64,000 nt of DNA from an uncultured Oligoflexia bacterium (GTDB taxonomy: Bacteria; Bdellovibrionota; Bacteriovoracia; Bacteriovoracales; Bacteriovoracaceae), in NCBI GenBank assembly GCA_937120495.1, contig CAKZJW010000076.1, forward strand, positions 1 to 64,000, in the 5' to 3' direction. Below are positions 32,748-43,354 of this stretch, piece by piece. Positions within the stretch are counted from its first letter, which is position 1; the number at the start of each line of letters is the position of its first letter. The notes under the pieces were generated by a model, which was given only the letters and a program-made list of their open reading frames with translations, made no database searches and was not told the origin of the DNA. The translations under genes were made by a program, and so were the position numbers.

Positions 32748-33722
32748 TTACCCACCAATCTCATTCATCTGATGTATTGTTTGCTCAAGTCTTTCGATTG
32801 GTTTTTTATTAATTAAATCTGCTAGAACAAATTCATATCCATTTACATCAAGGTCTCTGATACTTGGCCCCTCGTTAATCATAATACAAGGTCTAAGAAT
32901 TCCTTCGTTACTAAGTCTTAATCTTGAACAACCACTGCAAAAAGGCTGTGTCTCTGAGGCGATAAAGCCAAGCTGTGCTGAGGAGTCATTTTGTTTTGCT
33001 ATATAGTTAAATGAGGTTGAGTCTTGAGGCATTTGTTTTTGATCTAGGGTCCAAGTTTTAGAAACTCTATCAATTGCCTCTTTTGCACTTACAAAATGGC
33101 GATCAAAATATTGGCGAGCATATCCAATTTTCATCATTTCTAAAAAACGTACTTCAATATCGTATTTAGAACTAAATGCCAGAAAGTCTTCAATTTCTTC
33201 AAAATTTATGTTTTTTAGCATTACGGTATTTGTTTTTATATTAAAGCCAAGCTCTTTTGCTTTTAGAGTTGCACCTAAAACTTTTTTAAAAACATCTTTC
33301 TTAGTAATATAGGCAAATGATTTAGCTCTTAAACTATCGAGGCTAATATTTATATCTTTTATATTGTGGTCTTTTAAAAAATCAAGATGCTTATCGAGCA
33401 AAATAGCATTCGTTGTTACTGATAACTTTTTTAGCTTTAATTTTGAGAGTTCTTTGATGACTTCCTTAAACTGTGGATGCATTAATGGCTCTCCGCCAGT
33501 AAGCCGTACTTCTTCGATTCCAAAGCCTTTAAGATTCGCTACAATCTTTTTCATTTCAATTGGAGATAAAAGGTCTTCAAGTGGTTTAAACTTTTGATCT
33601 TCAGGCATGCAATACATGCAGCGCATATTACAAGTATCTAAAAGATTTAATCTTAATTTCTTTATATGACGACCGTGGTCATCAATTAATTTTGTTGTTT
33701 TGTCTTTCAAGTTCTTATCCAT
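32748..33722 (-). CDS. moaA: GTP 3',8-cyclase MoaA
   Basis: MoaA is the radical SAM enzyme starting molybdenum cofactor synthesis from GTP. The 324 residues contain CNMRCMYC (Cys31, 35, 38) for the SAM cluster, EVRLTGGEPL, and the C-terminal second cluster CSGCSRLRLSNEG with RPC. The chain ends in the diagnostic Gly-Gly (NEIGG). It is divergent from napA, which needs this cofactor, and no other moa or mob gene is in the window. Regulation may be shared through the FNR-like site at 33786. Confidence 0.95.
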   Translation of the reverse strand: MDKNLKDKTTKLIDDHGRHIKKLRLNLLDTCNMRCMYCMPEDQKFKPLEDLLSPIEMKKIVANLKGFGIEEVRLTGGEPLMHPQFKEVIKELSKLKLKKLSVTTNAILLDKHLDFLKDHNIKDINISLDSLRAKSFAYITKKDVFKKVLGATLKAKELGFNIKTNTVMLKNINFEEIEDFLAFSSKYDIEVRFLEMMKIGYARQYFDRHFVSAKEAIDRVSKTWTLDQKQMPQDSTSFNYIAKQNDSSAQLGFIASETQPFCSGCSRLRLSNEGILRPCIMINEGPSIRDLDVNGYEFVLADLINKKPIERLEQTIHQMNEIGG

Positions 33723-33910: not shown

Positions 33911-36634
33911 ATGAGTGATGATAAGTACAAAGAGTTGAAGAATTCGGAGATTATGCATGAAGCTCCAGATCAACCCGTTGAAGATGGAAAAAGACCAGGA
34001 AGAAGAAATTTCTTAAAGGGAATGCTTGGTGCCGGAGCAGCTGTTTCTGTTGCCTCTGAGTTTAAACCAAAAGAAGCTCATGGAACGATCTCAACGAAAC
34101 CAGAAAAATATGATTTAACTTTTAAAAAATCTAATGAAGATTGTCTTGCAGCTTGTCCATATTGTGGAGTTGGTTGTGGAACGATTATTAAAGTTAAGGA
34201 TGGTAAAATTTCTGGAGTTGTTCCAGATCCAAAGCATCCAACAAATAAAGGTTTGCAATGTATTAAAGGTTTAGCGTCAGCTGAAGCTATCTACGTAGAC
34301 CGTCTAACAAAACCTCTTATTCGTAAAGATATGAGTGACCCTTCAAAAAACCATATTTCAAAAACAAAAGGCTCTTATAATCTTAGTGATTTTAGAGAAG
34401 CTTCTTGGCATGAAGTTGAAGAATTAATTGCAGATAAAGTTGTTGATATCATTAAAGCAAAAGGTGGAAACGCTGTTGGGCTTTATGGTTCAGGTCAATT
34501 AACAGTTGAGGGACAATACCTAGAAAATATTTTTATGAAAGGTGTTATTGGTTCAAATACAATTGAGGCAAACGCCAGAATGTGTATGACTTCAGCGGTT
34601 ACTGGATACTTTAAAACTTTTGGTTCTGATACGCCTCCAACTTGTTATGACGATGTTGAGCAAGCGGATATGATTTCTTTTTGGGGACATAATGCTAGAG
34701 GGTCACATCCAATTTTATTTTGGAGAGCAGCAGATCATAAAAAATTAAAAAATATTCCAACTCTTGTTGTTGATCCTAGAAGAACGGGAACAGTTCAAGG
34801 TCTAGAGGAAATAAATCCGAAAAATTCTTATCACTTTGAAACAATCAATGGTGATATCTCAATTCATAATGCAATCGCTTATGCAATTTTAGAGAAATAC
34901 CCTGATGCTGTAGATTGGAAGCTTCTTAAGAATCACGTTAAGGGGTGGGAAGATTATATTAAGCAGGTAAAAGCAAAGTTTGATCCTAAAAAAGTTGAAG
35001 ATAAAACAATGGTACCGGCAAAAGAAATTTATAAGATCGCTAAGGTTTGGGCCGAAGCATCTATTAAAGGTAGAAAAAACGGTAAAGGTGGAGTTTTATC
35101 AATTTGGGGGATCGGTTATAACCAACATCTACATGGACAAAATAATACAGTTTCTCTTGTAAACCTAATGGTTTTAACTGGGAATATTGGTCGTCCAGGT
35201 TGTGGGCCACACTCTCAGACAGGGCAGCCAAATGCGATGGGTGAGAGGTTGACTGGTGGTTTAACGGGTAGGCTTCCATTTAATGTTGGTATTGATGATG
35301 TAAAACACAGAAATAGAATGGCAGATGAATGGGGAGTACCAAGAAGTAGACTAAAAGAAGTTGCAGGAATGAGTAATAAAGGGATGGCCGTTGGAATGAT
35401 GGAGAGGGCCCTTAAAAAAGAAGTCGATGCAATGTTCTTAATCTATGCAACTCATATTGATCTTCCAGAGACGAATACTCTCGTTAGACCGGCTCTTGAG
35501 AGAATGTTTGTTGTAAGTCAGGAAATTTATCATTCAGCTCCAAATAATCTTTACTCAGATGTAATCTTACCTGCGGCAACGTGGGGAGAGTGGTTTGGTG
35601 GAACATATATTCAATCAGAAAGAAGGTTCTATGTTTGTGATGGTACGGCCAACCCAATTAAGGGAACTAGACCAGATATGGACATGGTTATTGATAAAGG
35701 TAAACTTATTGCTAAGAAGCTTGGTCTAAATGTAGATAAGATTTTTCCATATAAGAGAATGAAAAATGGATTCTATGATCCAGAAGATATCTTTAGAGAC
35801 TTCTGTAAGGCATCTAAAGGAACTGATGCAGATATGTCTGGACTTCTAGATGTTGAAAAGAAAACAGGAACATCACCTTATCAACAACTAAGAGATCTTA
35901 GAGGTATTCAGTGGCCAGCACCTACGGCTGAAATAGCGATGAAAGGTGGTACTAAAAGAAGATTCCTATCTCAAGAAGATGGTTGGAAAGATAAACCGTA
36001 TGGTGAATTCAGACATAAAGATGGAAAGATGCATATGCATTTTTGTGATCAAGATTACTCTAAAAGAAAAGAGATCACAGATCAGCTTATGAAGTTTGGT
36101 GTGGAAAAAGATTTCTATGCTGAAGATAATATGGACCTATTAGTTAAGGCCCGAGATATGGCTCTAACTCCAGATCTTCCTGATGCTGAATTCCAAGGGA
36201 AAAAAGCTGCAGACATACCTAAAGACAAGTATCCATATTGGATTGGTCTTGGAGTTGTTTATGAGCATTTCCATACAGCGAAAACAATTAGATCAGGTAC
36301 AACAAGAAAGCTTGTTCCTGAACAATACGTAGAGATGCATCCTGATGATGCAAAAAATCTTGGCGTAAAAGATGGTGAGTGGGTTCGTGTTGTAACGAGA
36401 AGAGGGCACTACGAGGCGAGAGTTTCTATCGGTCTCGATTCAGTTGTTAAGCCAGCAAGAAATACTGTTCCTCAAGGTTATATGTTCAGCCCATGGAACT
36501 TATCGGTTGCGGATTCAGCAGATCCTAAGAAAAACAAATGGCTTGTTAACGCAGTTTCTAACAGAGCATTTGATCCAGTTTCGGGTCAAGTAGATTTTAA
36601 AAAACTTGCAGCAAGAATTGAAAAGATTTCTTAA
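33911..36634 (+). CDS. napA: Periplasmic nitrate reductase catalytic subunit NapA
   Basis: NapA reduces nitrate to nitrite in the periplasm at a bis-MGD molybdenum centre plus one [4Fe-4S] cluster. The 907-residue protein has a Tat motif GRRNFLKG (residues 30-37) after a longer than usual N terminus, cluster ligands Cys82, 85, 89 and 117, and the NapA signature NARMCMTSAVTGYFKTFGSD, in which Cys225 is the expected Mo ligand. The C terminus carries the molydopterin-binding barrel. SD GGGAG precedes ATG 33911. It heads a cluster extending to 41548 with very short spacings. Length is nearer epsilonproteobacterial NapA than E. coli NapA. Confidence 0.92.
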   Translation: MSDDKYKELKNSEIMHEAPDQPVEDGKRPGRRNFLKGMLGAGAAVSVASEFKPKEAHGTISTKPEKYDLTFKKSNEDCLAACPYCGVGCGTIIKVKDGKISGVVPDPKHPTNKGLQCIKGLASAEAIYVDRLTKPLIRKDMSDPSKNHISKTKGSYNLSDFREASWHEVEELIADKVVDIIKAKGGNAVGLYGSGQLTVEGQYLENIFMKGVIGSNTIEANARMCMTSAVTGYFKTFGSDTPPTCYDDVEQADMISFWGHNARGSHPILFWRAADHKKLKNIPTLVVDPRRTGTVQGLEEINPKNSYHFETINGDISIHNAIAYAILEKYPDAVDWKLLKNHVKGWEDYIKQVKAKFDPKKVEDKTMVPAKEIYKIAKVWAEASIKGRKNGKGGVLSIWGIGYNQHLHGQNNTVSLVNLMVLTGNIGRPGCGPHSQTGQPNAMGERLTGGLTGRLPFNVGIDDVKHRNRMADEWGVPRSRLKEVAGMSNKGMAVGMMERALKKEVDAMFLIYATHIDLPETNTLVRPALERMFVVSQEIYHSAPNNLYSDVILPAATWGEWFGGTYIQSERRFYVCDGTANPIKGTRPDMDMVIDKGKLIAKKLGLNVDKIFPYKRMKNGFYDPEDIFRDFCKASKGTDADMSGLLDVEKKTGTSPYQQLRDLRGIQWPAPTAEIAMKGGTKRRFLSQEDGWKDKPYGEFRHKDGKMHMHFCDQDYSKRKEITDQLMKFGVEKDFYAEDNMDLLVKARDMALTPDLPDAEFQGKKAADIPKDKYPYWIGLGVVYEHFHTAKTIRSGTTRKLVPEQYVEMHPDDAKNLGVKDGEWVRVVTRRGHYEARVSIGLDSVVKPARNTVPQGYMFSPWNLSVADSADPKKNKWLVNAVSNRAFDPVSGQVDFKKLAARIEKIS

Positions 36635-36651
36635 TTTTAGGGGAAGAGTTT

Positions 36652-37344
36652 ATGCGTTTTAATATATTTTTATTTTTAGTGATAGTGGGTGTGAGCTGTA
36701 CATCAAAACAGATGCAGTCAATTCCTCAAGTTGAACACGAACTAGTTGATAAACCAGTTGTGCTAGATGCAAAACTTGTAAAAAACGGTAAAAAAGTTTT
36801 CAAGAAAAAATGTGCTAGTTGTCACGGTCAAGAAGGTGTTGGAATCACCGGAATGGGCGCAAGACTTAATAGTCCTGATTTTCTTGGTCTAGCGGATGAT
36901 GAATTCATTCTAAAGACTATTGAAAACGGAAGACCAGGAACAACAATGGCTTCTTATAAAAAGGCCAGAAGAGTTAAAAAGCATATTCCAAGTCTAGTGG
37001 CGTATATCAGATCTTGGCAAAATGACTATGAGGTCTTTAAAAAGTATAAAGTTGATAAGACAATTGTATTAAAAGGTAATGTTGAGCACGGTAAAAAAGG
37101 GTATCAAACATACTGTTTATACTGCCATGGGCCAATAGGAGAAGGCTTCTCTTACGGTGGACCGGGGACAGGGATTGGACTTTCTGGATTTCTAGATGTA
37201 GCTAGTGATGACTATATTAAAAAGACGATCCAAGTTGGTAGAGCAGGTACTGCGATGAAGCCATTTGGACACGGTAGGGGACTAGCTAGATTAAACGAAA
37301 CAGAAATCGATGATATCGTAGTCTACCTTAGGAGTTTGAAGTAA
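36652..37344 (+). CDS. Diheme c-type cytochrome lipoprotein of the nap cluster
   Basis: A 230-residue protein with lipobox GVSC (Cys16), so anchored in a membrane and facing the periplasm. Two cytochrome c class I domains follow: CASCH at 54-58 with probable axial Met99 in TTMASY, and CLYCH at 155-159 with probable Met202 in TAMKPF. This is not NapB, whose fold and haem spacing differ. It sits directly after napA (17 bases) and is the obvious candidate electron donor to NapA in place of NapB. SD GGGGAAG precedes ATG. Confidence 0.88.
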   Translation: MRFNIFLFLVIVGVSCTSKQMQSIPQVEHELVDKPVVLDAKLVKNGKKVFKKKCASCHGQEGVGITGMGARLNSPDFLGLADDEFILKTIENGRPGTTMASYKKARRVKKHIPSLVAYIRSWQNDYEVFKKYKVDKTIVLKGNVEHGKKGYQTYCLYCHGPIGEGFSYGGPGTGIGLSGFLDVASDDYIKKTIQVGRAGTAMKPFGHGRGLARLNETEIDDIVVYLRSLK

Positions 37345-37920
37345 TTGAATAGAAGGCGTTTGTTAGCTGGGATAATTGCATTTTTAGCTTATATCCCAGT
37401 CCTATTTATAGGCCTTAAAAAAAATACAACAAGTAGTAATCGAAAGCGTTTTTTGCGTCCGCCTGGAGCATTAAAAGAAGATGACTTTCTACAGCAGTGC
37501 ATTGGTTGTTTTAAATGTGCAACTGCATGTCCAAATGATTGTATTAATATGGCAAGCTTTGAGTATGGCTTTGAAAATGTTCATACTCCTGTAATCAATG
37601 CTCGAGCGAAGGGTTGCACCCTTTGCATGATTTGTACTGAAGTTTGTCCAACTGGAGCCCTGACTGAAATAACGAGAGACCTTGAAGTTGCCAAAAAAGA
37701 AGTGAAGATGGGAACAGCTTATGTCGATAAAGATCTGTGCTTTTCATTTCACGGTAGAACTTGTGGGGTTTGTTATCGCGCTTGTCCTCTTCCAGGTGAG
37801 GCGATCAAAGTTGGCCTATATGAGCAGCCAACAGTTAATCCGGATAAATGTGTAGGTTGTGGTTTATGTGAGCAGGCGTGTATTCATATGCCTCAGGCCA
37901 TACGGATAAAACCCGCATGA
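37345..37920 (+). CDS. napG: NapG-like ferredoxin, four [4Fe-4S] clusters
   Basis: A 191-residue protein starting at TTG 37345 right after the cytochrome stop. The N terminus NRRRLLAGIIAFLAYIPVL is a twin-arginine-like signal or anchor, indicating a periplasmic position. Sixteen cluster cysteines form four sets: 52/55/58/62, 91/94/97/101, 132/140/143/147 and 169/172/175/179, with the RPPGA motif before the first, as in NapG. NapG with NapH transfers electrons from quinol towards NapA. Its stop overlaps the next gene start (ATGA). Confidence 0.85.
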   Translation: MNRRRLLAGIIAFLAYIPVLFIGLKKNTTSSNRKRFLRPPGALKEDDFLQQCIGCFKCATACPNDCINMASFEYGFENVHTPVINARAKGCTLCMICTEVCPTGALTEITRDLEVAKKEVKMGTAYVDKDLCFSFHGRTCGVCYRACPLPGEAIKVGLYEQPTVNPDKCVGCGLCEQACIHMPQAIRIKPA

Positions 37921-38861
37921 AAAAAATCAAAAAATCAAAAATCCAATACTTTCGCTATTTCACTTTGATTGCGGTGATTGCATTTTTTTGTTTGATTCCA
38001 ATAAGTAATTGGTACGCAAATAATAAGATCGCCTTTAATAATCCAAGACTTGTTGGCCTCGCAGATGGAGCACTTGCAGGTTATGTGTATTACGCTTTAG
38101 ATTTATTTTATTCTTTATTTGATGATCCCGTAACTGCAGCAACTTCAAGTAGTGGATCGATGTGGGCTTTTAGTATATTAGGCGTTCAATTTTCAGATCC
38201 TTTGGGATTAATCTCTGAGGTTATAAATTCCGTTAAATTTCCTATTAAATATTTTTTAGGTGGAATTGGTCCTGTTATTTTAGCTTTTACTTTGGGACGC
38301 GTTTTTTGTTCTTGGCTTTGTCCAATGGCATTTTTTTTTACTCTTACTGAAAAGATAAAAGAAGTTTTCAAAAAAATTGGAATTCCCATTTTAGAATTAA
38401 AAATACCAAGAGAGACAAGAATCTTTATATTCTGGTTTGGTCTTATTATAAGTTATTTTATGGGAATGTGGGTTTGGCATTTTATTTTGCCTTATATTAC
38501 CTTTAGCCATGAGGTTTTCTCTATTATTGTTTTTAATACTTTCACTGTTGGAATCTATTATTTCGTAGCCATTATTGTTCTTGATATTGGTCTCATCTCG
38601 GGAGAGTTTTGCAATAGTGTCTGTCCTACGGGGTGGTTACTTGCTCAATTTGGAAGATTTAGTCTATTTAAATTAAAAGCGGATAGTGCTAATTGTCCCA
38701 GCCGCTGCAAGGTTTGTTATACCGTTTGTCCGGTAGATCTCTTTCCAAAAGAAGATATTTTATTTAGCTGTCACCTTTGTTATAAGTGCGTGGATAATTG
38801 TCCCAAACAACATATCAAGTTAGACATTAATAGCTTATACACTAAGAAGGCGTTTAAATGA
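37917..38861 (+). CDS. napH: NapH-like membrane polyferredoxin
   Basis: About 314 residues from ATG 37917, which overlaps the preceding stop. An upstream in-frame start lies inside the preceding gene and was rejected. There are about four to five transmembrane helices with two cytoplasmic-side CxxxCP motifs (FCSWLCPMAF and FCNSVCPTGW), then a C-terminal double [4Fe-4S] ferredoxin region (CPSRCKVCYTVCP and CHLCYKCVDNCP). This is the NapH layout. With the NapG-like partner it would form a quinol dehydrogenase. It overlaps the next gene by four bases. Confidence 0.85.
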   Translation: MKKIKKSKIQYFRYFTLIAVIAFFCLIPISNWYANNKIAFNNPRLVGLADGALAGYVYYALDLFYSLFDDPVTAATSSSGSMWAFSILGVQFSDPLGLISEVINSVKFPIKYFLGGIGPVILAFTLGRVFCSWLCPMAFFFTLTEKIKEVFKKIGIPILELKIPRETRIFIFWFGLIISYFMGMWVWHFILPYITFSHEVFSIIVFNTFTVGIYYFVAIIVLDIGLISGEFCNSVCPTGWLLAQFGRFSLFKLKADSANCPSRCKVCYTVCPVDLFPKEDILFSCHLCYKCVDNCPKQHIKLDINSLYTKKAFK

Positions 38862-39439
38862 GAAATAAATATTTATCTTTATCTCTTTTTTTGTTTTTTT
38901 GTTTAACTTCATTTTCATGGGCCCACCACTATAAAGGGCTTCCTCATAATGATTACTTTGAAAACTATCCTCAGGTTCCAATATTAGAGTTTCTTCATGA
39001 AGATGATAAATGGGAAATCTTTTTAACTGTTTATAATTTTCAGGGGATTAACCTAGAGAATGTTGCTGATAGTGATATGGTGAGACTCTATATTTTTCTT
39101 TATGATGTAAGAGCAAATAAGGTTTATGGTAAGGCCGTAAAACTAGAGATCTTCTCAAGAGGAGAAGTTGTCTATTCTCAAGACGGGCACCTTCCTGAAG
39201 AGGAGAGTATATACTCTGTACATAAAAAATTAGTTCATCAAGATGATCTTGAACTCCATGTACATTTTAAAACGGAAGATGGAAAACTTGATATCGTAAA
39301 ACTTCCTTTCAATGTAACAAAACCATTTATTGAGAAATACGGACTTGCAATTGCGATAGTTCTTTTCTTTGTTTTCGTTGGAATTTTGAAGAAATTCTAT
39401 ATTAAAGATCAAGAGGATACTCGTGGTAAGAACGCCTAG
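38858..39439 (+). CDS. Periplasmic His-rich, membrane-anchored protein in the nap cluster
   Basis: A 193-residue protein with a signal peptide ending SFSWA. The mature N terminus is His-rich (HHYKGLPHNDYFENYPQVP), a strand-rich domain follows, and a C-terminal transmembrane helix (about 154-176) precedes a charged tail. The layout recalls FixH/YtkA-like periplasmic beta domains, but I cannot assign a family. The N-terminal histidines could bind haem or metal. It is translationally linked on both sides (4-base overlap upstream, 17-base overlap downstream), so it is probably part of the complex. Confidence 0.6.
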   Translation: MRNKYLSLSLFLFFCLTSFSWAHHYKGLPHNDYFENYPQVPILEFLHEDDKWEIFLTVYNFQGINLENVADSDMVRLYIFLYDVRANKVYGKAVKLEIFSRGEVVYSQDGHLPEEESIYSVHKKLVHQDDLELHVHFKTEDGKLDIVKLPFNVTKPFIEKYGLAIAIVLFFVFVGILKKFYIKDQEDTRGKNA

Positions 39440-40982
39440 AGTATATTGTGATGGGAGTACAGAATTCTCCCAGATTAATATTGGAGAATATTCATTTGAT
39501 ATTTATTGGCAGCTAGTTTTTGTTTTCTTTGTTCTTTTTCTTGGATTCTATTTTTATTTTCGCTATCCCAAAAAGAAATTTTCCTTTATCGCTTCTCGCT
39601 TTTCAATTTTTGAATTTGAATTTCTTGAAAGTCTTGTGCGCTTTAAATATTTTTCGCCTTTAATTCGTTTTATTCCAGCTTTAATTTTTATTGTAGTTCT
39701 TGTGACGGGCTTTTTTGGAAGAGATAGAGCAAGCTTTGCAGCTCCTTTTGTCTGGATGTTTTGGTGGACACTACTTATTTTCTTTGTCGCATTTTCAGGG
39801 AAAATTTTTTGTGCCTTTTGTCCTTGGGATTTTTTTGCAAATCTATTTCAATACGGTTTGGTATTTAATAAAAAGAAATATAAAGCAAAGAAACTTTTAA
39901 AATGGCCAAAAGCCTTAAAGACAGTTCTTCCGGCGACAGTATTTTTTATTATTATCACTTGGCTTGAACTTGGATTAGAAATAACAAAAAGCTCATATTG
40001 GACAGCTGTCTTGGGTCTAATCGTTGTATCGATGGCCGTTGTAATACCAATGTTTTTTGAAAAAAGGGCCTTTTGTCGCTATCTTTGTCCGGTTGGAAGA
40101 ATTAGTGGAGCTTATTCTCTTTTTGCTCCTTTAGAGATTAGAGTAAAAGAGCCAACAGCTTGTCTAGATTGTAAAACAAAGGACTGTGTAAAAGGAAATG
40201 AATACTCAACGGCTTGCCCAACAGGTCTTATTCCATATAAATTACAAGAAAATACTTATTGTACCTTATGTACAGAGTGCATTCGTTCTTGTGAAAAAAA
40301 TAACTTAACAATTAATATGAGATCGATGGCTGCAGATGTCGATACGATGAAAAAATCAAATAAAGATGAAGGTATCTTGTATCTTATAATATTTGCATTA
40401 ACTTATTTTCACGGAATCACAATGGTGGATACGTGGTTTGAATTTATAGATATGATTAGAAATTCACTTAACGCTTCTTATCTTCTATCTTTTACTATTT
40501 TATTTGCCATCTATATTGTCCTCTTTCTCTTTGGTGTATTCATTGTAAATAAAGTGATTGAAATATTAAGTCGAAAAACTATTTCAATTTTTGATCTTTG
40601 CATCTCATTAATCCCAGTGACTCTGGCGTATCACTTAGGTCATAATATTATGCACCTTCTTGGTGAGTTAGAGTTTTTAATAAAGCCTCTAAATGATCCT
40701 TTTGGTTTTGGTATGAACCTTTTTGGATTAAAAGACTTTGTTCCAAAACAAGGAATTAATCATGTTGATTTACTTGAGTCTCAACTCGTTATTTATGCGA
40801 TAGGATTATACTACTCAGTAAAAACATTACGAGTTCGTCTGCAAAAGCTCAATATCTCTTTAGATAATAAACTGGCCTACTCTTCAAGCTATTTTATTGT
40901 TTATTCGATTCTTTTTATGCTTTCCTTCTTTAGCTTGTGGCTAATCTCGCAGCCTATGGTCTATCGCGGGGGGATTCTATGA
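39423..40982 (+). CDS. NapH/NosR-like polyferredoxin with extra histidine-bearing membrane domain
   Basis: A 519-residue membrane protein starting at GTG 39423 within the previous gene's end. The N-terminal half has several helices with FCAFCPWDFF (Cys130, 133) and FCRYLCPVGR (Cys218, 222), then two [4Fe-4S] sets (Cys247/250/255/265 and 280/283/286/290). Unlike plain NapH, a further C-terminal block of about five helices (320-515) carries His330 in TYFHGI and His404/407/411 in YHLGHNIMH, positions suited to haem b or quinol chemistry. This could replace NapC as quinol oxidant; that is inference. It overlaps the next start (ATGA). Confidence 0.7.
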   Translation: MVRTPRVYCDGSTEFSQINIGEYSFDIYWQLVFVFFVLFLGFYFYFRYPKKKFSFIASRFSIFEFEFLESLVRFKYFSPLIRFIPALIFIVVLVTGFFGRDRASFAAPFVWMFWWTLLIFFVAFSGKIFCAFCPWDFFANLFQYGLVFNKKKYKAKKLLKWPKALKTVLPATVFFIIITWLELGLEITKSSYWTAVLGLIVVSMAVVIPMFFEKRAFCRYLCPVGRISGAYSLFAPLEIRVKEPTACLDCKTKDCVKGNEYSTACPTGLIPYKLQENTYCTLCTECIRSCEKNNLTINMRSMAADVDTMKKSNKDEGILYLIIFALTYFHGITMVDTWFEFIDMIRNSLNASYLLSFTILFAIYIVLFLFGVFIVNKVIEILSRKTISIFDLCISLIPVTLAYHLGHNIMHLLGELEFLIKPLNDPFGFGMNLFGLKDFVPKQGINHVDLLESQLVIYAIGLYYSVKTLRVRLQKLNISLDNKLAYSSSYFIVYSILFMLSFFSLWLISQPMVYRGGIL

Positions 40983-41548
40983 GTGATAAGAAGATAGGAC
41001 GTAGAGACTTATTTAGAAAGACCATGCATTCAGCAAAGAAGGTTACTTTTGATCTTCTTGATGCAGGAATGAAAATTAAATTTAGAAGAAAAATAATTCG
41101 ACCACCTGGGGCCATAGCTGAAGATCAATTTTTAATGGCCTGTTCTAGATGTGATTCATGTAAAGATGCATGCCCGTATAATGCAATTCACAAGGTAAGC
41201 TCTGTGAGTGCTGGAGTATTATTCAACACTCCCTTTATTGATCCTCATCACGAAGCCTGTCGTTTTTGTGAAGACATGCCTTGTATTAAAGCATGTGATG
41301 ATAACGCATTAATCTTAACAGATATAATAAAACCTATAGGTCTTGCTGTTGTACACAGAGAGCACTGTTTAGTAGAGCAGGGGCAATACTGTGATTATTG
41401 TTATAACTCGTGCCCTAATTCACTTAAGGCAATTATAAAAGGCGAAGATGGTGTTCCTGTTATTGATGCAGATGCGTGTGTTGGATGTGGTAAATGTGCC
41501 TATATCTGTGTTTCTCAATCTGGTCCAGCGATTAAGATTACTCCTTAA
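40979..41548 (+). CDS. Second NapG/NapF-like ferredoxin, four [4Fe-4S] clusters
   Basis: A 189-residue protein from ATG 40979 (GGGGGGAT upstream). Cys sets: 55/58/61/65, 94/97/102/106, 130/138/141/145 and 167/170/173/177, preceded by RPPGAIAEDQF as in the first NapG-like protein, so the two are paralogues. GRRDLFRK resembles a twin-arginine motif, but no hydrophobic stretch follows. It may therefore stay cytoplasmic like NapF or be exported with a partner. It ends the cluster, three bases from the convergent DUF255 gene. Confidence 0.78.
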   Translation: MSDKKIGRRDLFRKTMHSAKKVTFDLLDAGMKIKFRRKIIRPPGAIAEDQFLMACSRCDSCKDACPYNAIHKVSSVSAGVLFNTPFIDPHHEACRFCEDMPCIKACDDNALILTDIIKPIGLAVVHREHCLVEQGQYCDYCYNSCPNSLKAIIKGEDGVPVIDADACVGCGKCAYICVSQSGPAIKITP

Positions 41549-41551
41549 TAA

Positions 41552-43354
41552 CTATTTAAATAGTGTCTTCGATTTTTTTAGAAAATCTTTAATATTTGTT
41601 TGAGGCAAAAAACACATCGAGCTGCTACAAATATAGAGCCTCGTTTTACTCTTTGTTTTTTTATCTTTAAAAAATGGATAAGAGGCATTGATTTCATTTT
41701 TTTTAATAATGGCTCCAAAAGGAAAAAGAGTTCCAAATACTTTTTTCTCTAAGGTTGTTTCTTCCTTTCCTGTAATAACCACAAAGTAAGATGAAGGGGA
41801 GAGGTTATCTGTTTTATCCGCTTTATCAAAGAAAAGATTAATCATTGAATATAAATGCTTAAGTCTTTTATTCTTCGTTCCTTTTAAATTTAGAGATGTG
41901 AGTTTTTGAATTGATTGTATTTTTTTAAAAGAATCAAAAGTTGTCTTAAAGGAGGATAACTTGAAATTAATTTCAAGAAGACTTAAATAGTCCTCATCAG
42001 AAGCTTTATCATAACACTTCTTTTTTCCACAATTTTCAAAAAGAATGTCATTCTTCATAAAGCGATTGAGTATGTTTTTATTTAAACTATATGCCTTATG
42101 AATATATACCTCTTTATTTGTTTTTACTCCAAATTCGAATAATGCTCGAGTGAGAGAAATCATATCTTTTATTCTTGCCCTTTGATCATTTAAAGGGCGG
42201 ATATTTGAGATCGGTTTTGCCTTCTTATAATACTTTTTACAAAATTGAATATTCTTTTTCGTTAAGTTCTTTAAAGAAGTAGTTGAGTAAGCTGTCTTTA
42301 GATATTTCTTAAAACAGTCTTTTGGAAGATTCTTATTAGAATATAAATAATAAGCACCCTCTTTATGAAGACCTTTTTCGATAACATCAGCAGAAATAAT
42401 TGAAGCATAGAGATTATCTTCTATCTTTAAAGAGCTTTCAATAAAGTTAATCGTTTGAATTCCAAAATCAAAATATTTTTTGTCTTGTGTTTGATAGAAC
42501 TTATTTGCTAAGGCCATGATTAAAAAAGAATTATCATGTAGTCTCTTTTCAAAATGTGGCGTTTCCCAGTTTGAGCTTGCAGAGTAGCGATGAAGGCCAC
42601 CGTTAACCTTGTCATATATTGCAGCTTTTAAAATCGAGTCGAGAGTTTTTGTATTATGTTTTTCTAAATTTTTATCTTGATTTATATAGGCTTTTATTTG
42701 ATTTTCAATTAGTGGGTACTCGGTAACAAACTTTGCTTCTTTTTTATAGCCACCAAATACTTCATCTTTTTTTAAGTTGATAATCTCTTTATTGAGAGAG
42801 GCCTTCTCAACTCGCCTTGCCAATTTTTCCGCCTTCTCATATTGAGAATGGAATTTATCGGAGAAAATTTTTAAAAGCTGGATAAAACTTAATCTGTCTT
42901 CCAGAGTTGCTGAGTTTGAAACATAAGAGCTTGCATAGTAGGGAAGAAGATTTGGAAGAAGCCAAAGATTTGCGGGCCATCCCTTACTGCCAATCAGATT
43001 TAATTGGTAGTTTAGGTACTTCTCATTTACTTTTGGGTGTTGATCTTTATCAACAATAATTGAGATATACTGCGAGTTTAAAATCTTTATAACTTTTTCA
43101 TCAGTAAAATTGTCTTTAGACATTTTATTGCACCAATGACAGCCATAATAACCAATATGTAGAAAAATAGGTTTCTTTGATTTTTTTAAAATTTTAAGAT
43201 TATGATCATTCCATTTATACCAATTAATTTTTTGATTAAGGTGATCTTTTATATATTGTGAGTTTGTTTTTGAGTCTATTGGTTGAAGCTTGTTAGCAAT
43301 TGAACTTGCTGCAGAGACATTAATGAATATAGATATAAGCAAAATTATTTTCAC
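41552..43354 (-). CDS. Secreted DUF255 thioredoxin-like protein (YyaL/SSP411 family)
   Basis: A 600-residue protein. After a signal peptide (to about residue 16) comes the DUF255 N-terminal domain: INWYKWNDHNL, KKPIFLHIGYYGCHWCNKM (Cys72-x-x-Cys75), VDKDQHPKVNEKYLNYQL and GSKGWPANLWLLPN, matching the YyaL pattern with CHWC. The helical alpha/alpha barrel-like C-terminal part is present but diverged. YyaL-type proteins normally lack export signals, so a periplasmic thioredoxin-like version is notable. It is convergent with the nap cluster; the last bases form a palindrome ACTATTTAAATAGT. Confidence 0.8.
   Translation of the reverse strand: MKIILLISIFINVSAASSIANKLQPIDSKTNSQYIKDHLNQKINWYKWNDHNLKILKKSKKPIFLHIGYYGCHWCNKMSKDNFTDEKVIKILNSQYISIIVDKDQHPKVNEKYLNYQLNLIGSKGWPANLWLLPNLLPYYASSYVSNSATLEDRLSFIQLLKIFSDKFHSQYEKAEKLARRVEKASLNKEIINLKKDEVFGGYKKEAKFVTEYPLIENQIKAYINQDKNLEKHNTKTLDSILKAAIYDKVNGGLHRYSASSNWETPHFEKRLHDNSFLIMALANKFYQTQDKKYFDFGIQTINFIESSLKIEDNLYASIISADVIEKGLHKEGAYYLYSNKNLPKDCFKKYLKTAYSTTSLKNLTKKNIQFCKKYYKKAKPISNIRPLNDQRARIKDMISLTRALFEFGVKTNKEVYIHKAYSLNKNILNRFMKNDILFENCGKKKCYDKASDEDYLSLLEINFKLSSFKTTFDSFKKIQSIQKLTSLNLKGTKNKRLKHLYSMINLFFDKADKTDNLSPSSYFVVITGKEETTLEKKVFGTLFPFGAIIKKNEINASYPFFKDKKTKSKTRLYICSSSMCFLPQTNIKDFLKKSKTLFK

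Follow-up and report, generated by a model that had tools for sequence, protein, structure and literature searches.

Judging from the sequence, we lean towards reading the seven-gene operon at 33911-41548 of the window (the whole 64,000-nt stretch of DNA that was analysed) as encoding a periplasmic oxyanion reductase for respiration, from a distinct NapA-related clade that has been widely transferred; the enzyme would be fed by quinol and probably reduces nitrate. The operon appears to work like a Nap-type respiratory system, yet it departs from orthodox NapA and Nap clusters in the features tested for membership, and it is apparently undescribed. ORF analysis of the window showed seven overlapping ORFs on the same strand, of 907, 230, 191, 327, 193, 519 and 203 aa in gene order, and this bore out the layout given in the first-pass annotation. 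The genes are named here, in order, A, C, G1, H1, X, H2 and G2. They and the divergent neighbour of the operon are as follows:

32748 to 33722, - strand: MoaA-like protein (molybdenum cofactor synthesis) with Radical_SAM and Mob_synth_C.
33911 to 36634, + strand: A, NapA-like Mo-bisPGD [4Fe-4S] catalytic subunit, 907 aa, with Tat signal GRRNFLK and Cys ligand C225.
36652 to 37344, + strand: C, diheme cytochrome c with a lipoprotein-like leader, 230 aa, CxxCH at 54 and 155.
37345 to 37920, + strand: G1, NapG-like periplasmic ferredoxin, 191 aa, with a TTG start, a Tat-like leader and 16 conserved Cys.
37917 to 38861, + strand: H1, NapH-like membrane polyferredoxin (ORF listed from GTG 37878).
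38858 to 39439, + strand: X, 193 aa, with a signal peptide, a beta-sandwich domain and a C-terminal membrane helix, outside any Pfam family.
39423 to 40982, + strand: H2, large NapH-like polyferredoxin with a second membrane domain, 519 aa.
40979 to 41548, + strand: G2, second NapG-like ferredoxin with 16 Cys and GRRDLFRK (ORF listed from GTG 40937).

The best starts of H1 (ATG 37917) and G2 (ATG 40979) overlap the stops of G1 and H2, respectively, each in an ATGA overlap. A was matched by Pfam Molybdopterin, Molydop_binding and Molybdop_Fe4S4, and C by Cytochrome_CBB3/Cytochrom_C; the two CxxCH motifs and the leader of C agree with its earlier description as a diheme lipoprotein cytochrome. 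The MoaA-like neighbour, whose homologues lie near the operon in 5 other loci, probably supports the operon enzyme, and its membership of the operon is only putative. A DUF255 thioredoxin-like gene (41552-43354, - strand) adjoins the operon in the window, and a long thioredoxin-like protein of a similar type is found downstream of the operon in L062, L064 and L081. Promoter and terminator scans of the operon performed no better than chance.

The first gene had been called NapA. It is indeed a Tat-signal MopB enzyme with NapA as its nearest characterised relative, but it does not reach the level of NapA itself. Against the NCBIfam NapA models (NF010055 / TIGR01706), A scored 344.6 bits (cut-off 904) and 322.5 bits (cut-off 930.55). 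The curated Nas/NasA models gave 288.6 and 256.6 bits (cut-offs 1000 and 1100), and the formate dehydrogenase alpha model gave 318.6 bits, near the NapA score. Among solved enzymes, NapA proteins come closest to A and formate dehydrogenases next. In the alignment, C225, M226, Q439 and R446 are invariant across the clade and common to NapA, so that A has the Cys Mo ligand and the conserved active-site Gln/Arg of NapA. C225, the Mo ligand, matches C140 of D. desulfuricans NapA, and in the same numbering we take M141, Q346 and R354 to be the counterparts of M226, Q439 and R446. Other features set the clade apart: T227 next to the Mo ligand is clade-invariant where NapA has Ala, a clade-specific insert lies near 707-765, and 334 positions are near-invariant within the clade. 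The loop before R446 (TGQPNAMGxR) is one residue shorter, as in Nas. This is the likeness of A to NasA/NarB; however, Nas enzymes are cytoplasmic and have other partners, whereas A carries a Tat leader, has its partners in the periplasm and lies apart from the Nas group in the tree.

When 84,980 species were scanned, 80 orthologues of A were kept, 58-80% identical in the best segment, in records that carry 11 phylum labels (by record title). All 80 rows formed one group in the tree (SH-aLRT 100) on a very long stem, outside the 6 NapA and 3 Nas-type rows. This was a quick tree in which the program flagged long branches, so only the separation of the clade is relied on and not its exact position. 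Alignment and tree together make A a member of a clade of its own, next to NapA and Nas and distinct from orthodox NapA. The rows nearest to the A of the window came from two MAGs, one of Pseudobdellovibrionaceae (81%) and one of Cyclobacteriaceae; no orthologue turned up among 58 sampled relatives, a pattern consistent with horizontal spread or with repeated loss. In composition, the cluster differs only slightly from the remainder of the window (0.967 versus 0.974-0.990 for control pieces). Searching plasmid records with A by tblastn gave only NapA and Nas relatives at approximately 30%. Nearly identical operons were seen in L034 (a MAG labelled Gemmatimonadetes) and L036 (Latescibacterota); since such sequences stand under different phyla, one of the two labels is probably wrong.

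The partners of A are conserved with it. C adjoins A in 63/63 loci with enough sequence, and G1, H1 and X are each present in 51/52 loci, the second NapG-like protein in 47/52 and H2 in 42/52. The recurrence of this gene set in dozens of distant genomes puts it far beyond chance. NapB and NapD were found in 0/52 loci with enough sequence, and a NapC-type tetraheme gene occurred in the neighbourhood of 22/52, in Pseudomonadota only. Thus, the earlier suggestion that the cytochrome and the polyferredoxins replace NapB and NapC holds clade-wide as far as gene content is concerned, and the electron path itself is predicted. H2 is apparently missing in several Alphaproteobacteria and one Rhodocyclaceae record, where breakage of draft ORFs is possible. 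Several loci have a fused H1-X gene. In the Myxococcota loci L051 (13240-16548), L053, L056 and L059, one long ORF gives matches to both H1 and H2, which suggests that H1, X and H2 were fused into one protein. Some homologues of C have four heme domains.

Genes 3 and 7 had been described as NapG-like, with RPPGA and sixteen Cys, and the alignment confirmed this: both G1 and G2 contain RPPGA and the cysteines needed to bind four 4Fe-4S clusters, which are invariant with respect to E. coli NapG. Both also have the twin-Arg leader of a NapG-like ferredoxin as read from the sequence, that of G2 without a clear hydrophobic stretch. G1 and G2 scored 139 and 124 bits against NapG (PRK09476, cut-off 269), and H1 and H2 scored 87-91 and 46-49 bits against the NapH models (cut-off 234). 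The NapH-like assignment of genes 4 and 6 stands as a match below the cut-off. A NosR identity for H2 (part of the name given to gene 6) or a CcoG identity is unsupported, as NapH models alone matched and a fold search against the PDB returned zero matches. The second membrane domain of H2 contains H404, H407, N408, H411 and E415, invariant in the alignments. The view that the module was duplicated did not survive. G1 and G2 are only 34% identical, and in other phyla each is represented by a counterpart of its own, so they did not arise by a recent local duplication; the idea that the NapG/NapH pair was recently duplicated in tandem was rejected, and the copies are old paralogues. On these identities, the system has had its double G/H module for a long time. 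Plasmid records searched with H2 gave no informative operon, only polyferredoxins standing alone and a pair in Deinococcus ficus. In this pair (L110:6931-9212, on a plasmid), a His-rich membrane-anchored protein lies beside an H2-like polyferredoxin, and no A gene accompanies them. The motif HxxHNxxH is common to this polyferredoxin and the H2 of the window.

X had been described as a His-rich anchored protein. The anchor is supported by a signal peptide and a C-terminal membrane helix, but the His content is only 4.7%, and the distinguishing mark of X is an invariant HH straight after the signal peptide. X had no NCBIfam match, and no Pfam match over the cut-off was obtained among 24 members, across which H23, H24, G27, P29 and P150 are invariant. 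Because the His pair directly follows the predicted signal peptide, HHxxGxP would be the mature N-terminus. In a Foldseek search with the AF2 model of X (pLDDT 82.7, pTM 0.64), the best match was the copper-resistance protein CrdA (E 2.6e-4), a weak match with modest TM-scores; PmoD, CopC and SoxYZ ranked lower in the list. X thus resembles the copper-binding beta-sandwich proteins CrdA, PmoD and CopC in a weak fold match and has an N-terminal His pair; it differs from them in that no sequence family matched it above the cut-off, and copper binding by X is putative. The first ~10 mature residues were modelled at low confidence, so a metal site cannot be claimed. Plasmid records searched with X yielded no informative operon.

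We propose the following route. Electrons would probably pass from menaquinol to H1 (and H2), then to G1 (and G2), and from there through the diheme cytochrome C to the [4Fe-4S] cluster of A, where the Tat-exported Mo-bisPGD enzyme would probably reduce nitrate to nitrite. In Pseudomonadota, a NapC cytochrome may provide a second entry point from quinol. X, which is often fused to H1, would probably work on the outer face of the H1-H2 module, as an assembly or metal-binding factor. NapC-independent nitrate respiration through NapGH in Wolinella, as cited in PMC12780646, is a precedent for such a route, and a NapB-less Nap is known from Caldithrix (PMC5317091).

The evidence for nitrate comes from the Nap-like active site and the neighbours of the operon; the conserved partners, the H1-X and H1-X-H2 fusions and the NapC of Pseudomonadota support the preferred reading as a whole. 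Genes for a NarX/NarQ-type kinase and NarL lie immediately beside the operon in divergent orientation in L075 and L082, at the edge of the L079 locus and downstream of the operon in L067; the first three represent one lineage and L067 another, independent one. The NarL of L075 scored 290 bits (cut-off 250). NapB-NapA is the next locus downstream of the operon in L046, NirK lies near the operon in L026, and RIC/YtfE in L027, L046 and L087. In L087 (2938-4424), RIC/YtfE is upstream of the operon together with an Rrf2-type regulator, which resembles NsrR by eye. The same electron-transfer architecture may instead serve another oxyanion or an N-oxide, with nitrate left to an orthodox Nap where one is present, a possibility that we regard as real but doubtful. 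In its favour are the deep split from NapA on a long stem, T227, the insert and the strong internal conservation of A. It also suits the coexistence with orthodox enzymes: NapA exceeded the cut-off in 17/42 carrier genomes, a few more were close and some had two, so that in about half of the carriers a second nitrate reductase would duplicate an orthodox or near-orthodox NapA. NarG over the cut-off was found in 0/42, and 14/42 carriers showed none of NapA, NarG, NirS, NirK and NrfA; these counts are descriptive and cover carriers only, most of which are draft MAGs. The NarXL link amounts to two cases. Against a different substrate speak the Nap-like Mo ligand, Q439 and R446, as well as the NarXL, nap, NirK and RIC neighbours, and among the recurrent neighbours no gene pointed to a substrate other than nitrate.

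The first-pass annotation regarded the enzyme as an ordinary NapA whose NapB, NapC and NapD had been lost and replaced within the lineage, and it reported none of the three. They are absent from the cluster. Elsewhere in the same genome, contig C94 carries an orthodox nap locus:

L002, 443 to 11952: NapD-like protein, NapA, NapB, multiheme c and NrfC/NrfD-like proteins.

Its NapA (960 bits including neighbouring pieces) and NapB (34.8 bits) are over their cut-offs, and NapD is a weak match (23.3 bits, cut-off 28). A NapC/NrfH-family gene was not found in the genome, which is 90.8% complete. Therefore, the argument from missing napB and napD fails at the genome level, and the cluster itself is truly without both. 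Near this locus are a Cu nitrite reductase gene, a Sco-like gene and molybdenum cofactor genes. Misbinning of C94 is unsupported, since its GC and tetranucleotides match those of the window. NapA is the closest characterised relative of A, and the cytochrome and polyferredoxins could take over the roles of NapB, NapC and NapD; nevertheless, the score far under the NapA cut-off, the clade split with SH-aLRT 100 and the orthodox locus in the same genome make the earlier view quite improbable, and the same gene content in 11 labelled phyla argues against a lineage-specific loss. It is very unlikely that the enzyme runs as an oxidase, that is, a periplasmic dehydrogenase passing electrons to cytochrome C and the quinone pool, for although Nas, NapA and formate dehydrogenase share a fold and the formate dehydrogenase alpha score nearly equals that of NapA, the clade has MCMTSAV at the Mo ligand in place of VCHGPSV of formate dehydrogenase (FdhF), and the NarXL and NapC links suit a reductase.

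With a nitrate-reducing respiratory system as the preferred reading, the operon can be compared with known types. It shares with orthodox Nap (E. coli napFDAGHBC and the NapGH-dependent, NapC-independent Wolinella system) a Tat-exported, Cys-ligated Mo-bisPGD [4Fe-4S] enzyme and NapG/NapH partners, but it has a diheme c, a second NapG-like protein, H2 and X and has neither NapB nor NapD, and its catalytic subunit with the extra insert stays under the NapA cut-off in a separate clade. The NapM-type Nap of Desulfovibrio and Caldithrix (PMC5317091) likewise lacks NapB and NapC, uses another cytochrome and has NapGH; its NapM is tetraheme, whereas a class I-type diheme c, two G/H-type sets, X and a catalytic subunit of another clade are found here. 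The NapD-NapA-NapB-cyt-FeS-NrfD type, seen on C94 of the same genome and on a Flammeovirga plasmid (L103), also has a NapA-related catalytic subunit; it differs in an NrfC/NrfD-like instead of a NapGH-like quinol module and in its orthodox NapA, which on C94 is 36% identical to A. No description of the operon type, as a nap subtype or otherwise, was found in the open-licence literature searched, and a term search of a MopB survey of 47,000 sequences (PMC10100899) likewise gave none; one elsewhere is possible. Tentatively, the operon could represent an undescribed, widespread periplasmic respiratory system with a new MopB clade, a dual polyferredoxin quinol dehydrogenase, a metal-binding-like X and possibly a substrate other than nitrate.

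Because enzymes of this clade are readily mistaken for NapA or annotated simply as generic oxidoreductases, their numbers may be wrong in surveys of nitrate respiration. The cultured strains Photobacterium profundum and Shewanella benthica carry the operon, which makes it directly testable. If A does not reduce nitrate, a common marine respiratory substrate is still to be found. If A does reduce nitrate, many Verrucomicrobiota, Myxococcota and Pseudomonadota without NarG and NapA would gain a route for nitrate respiration.
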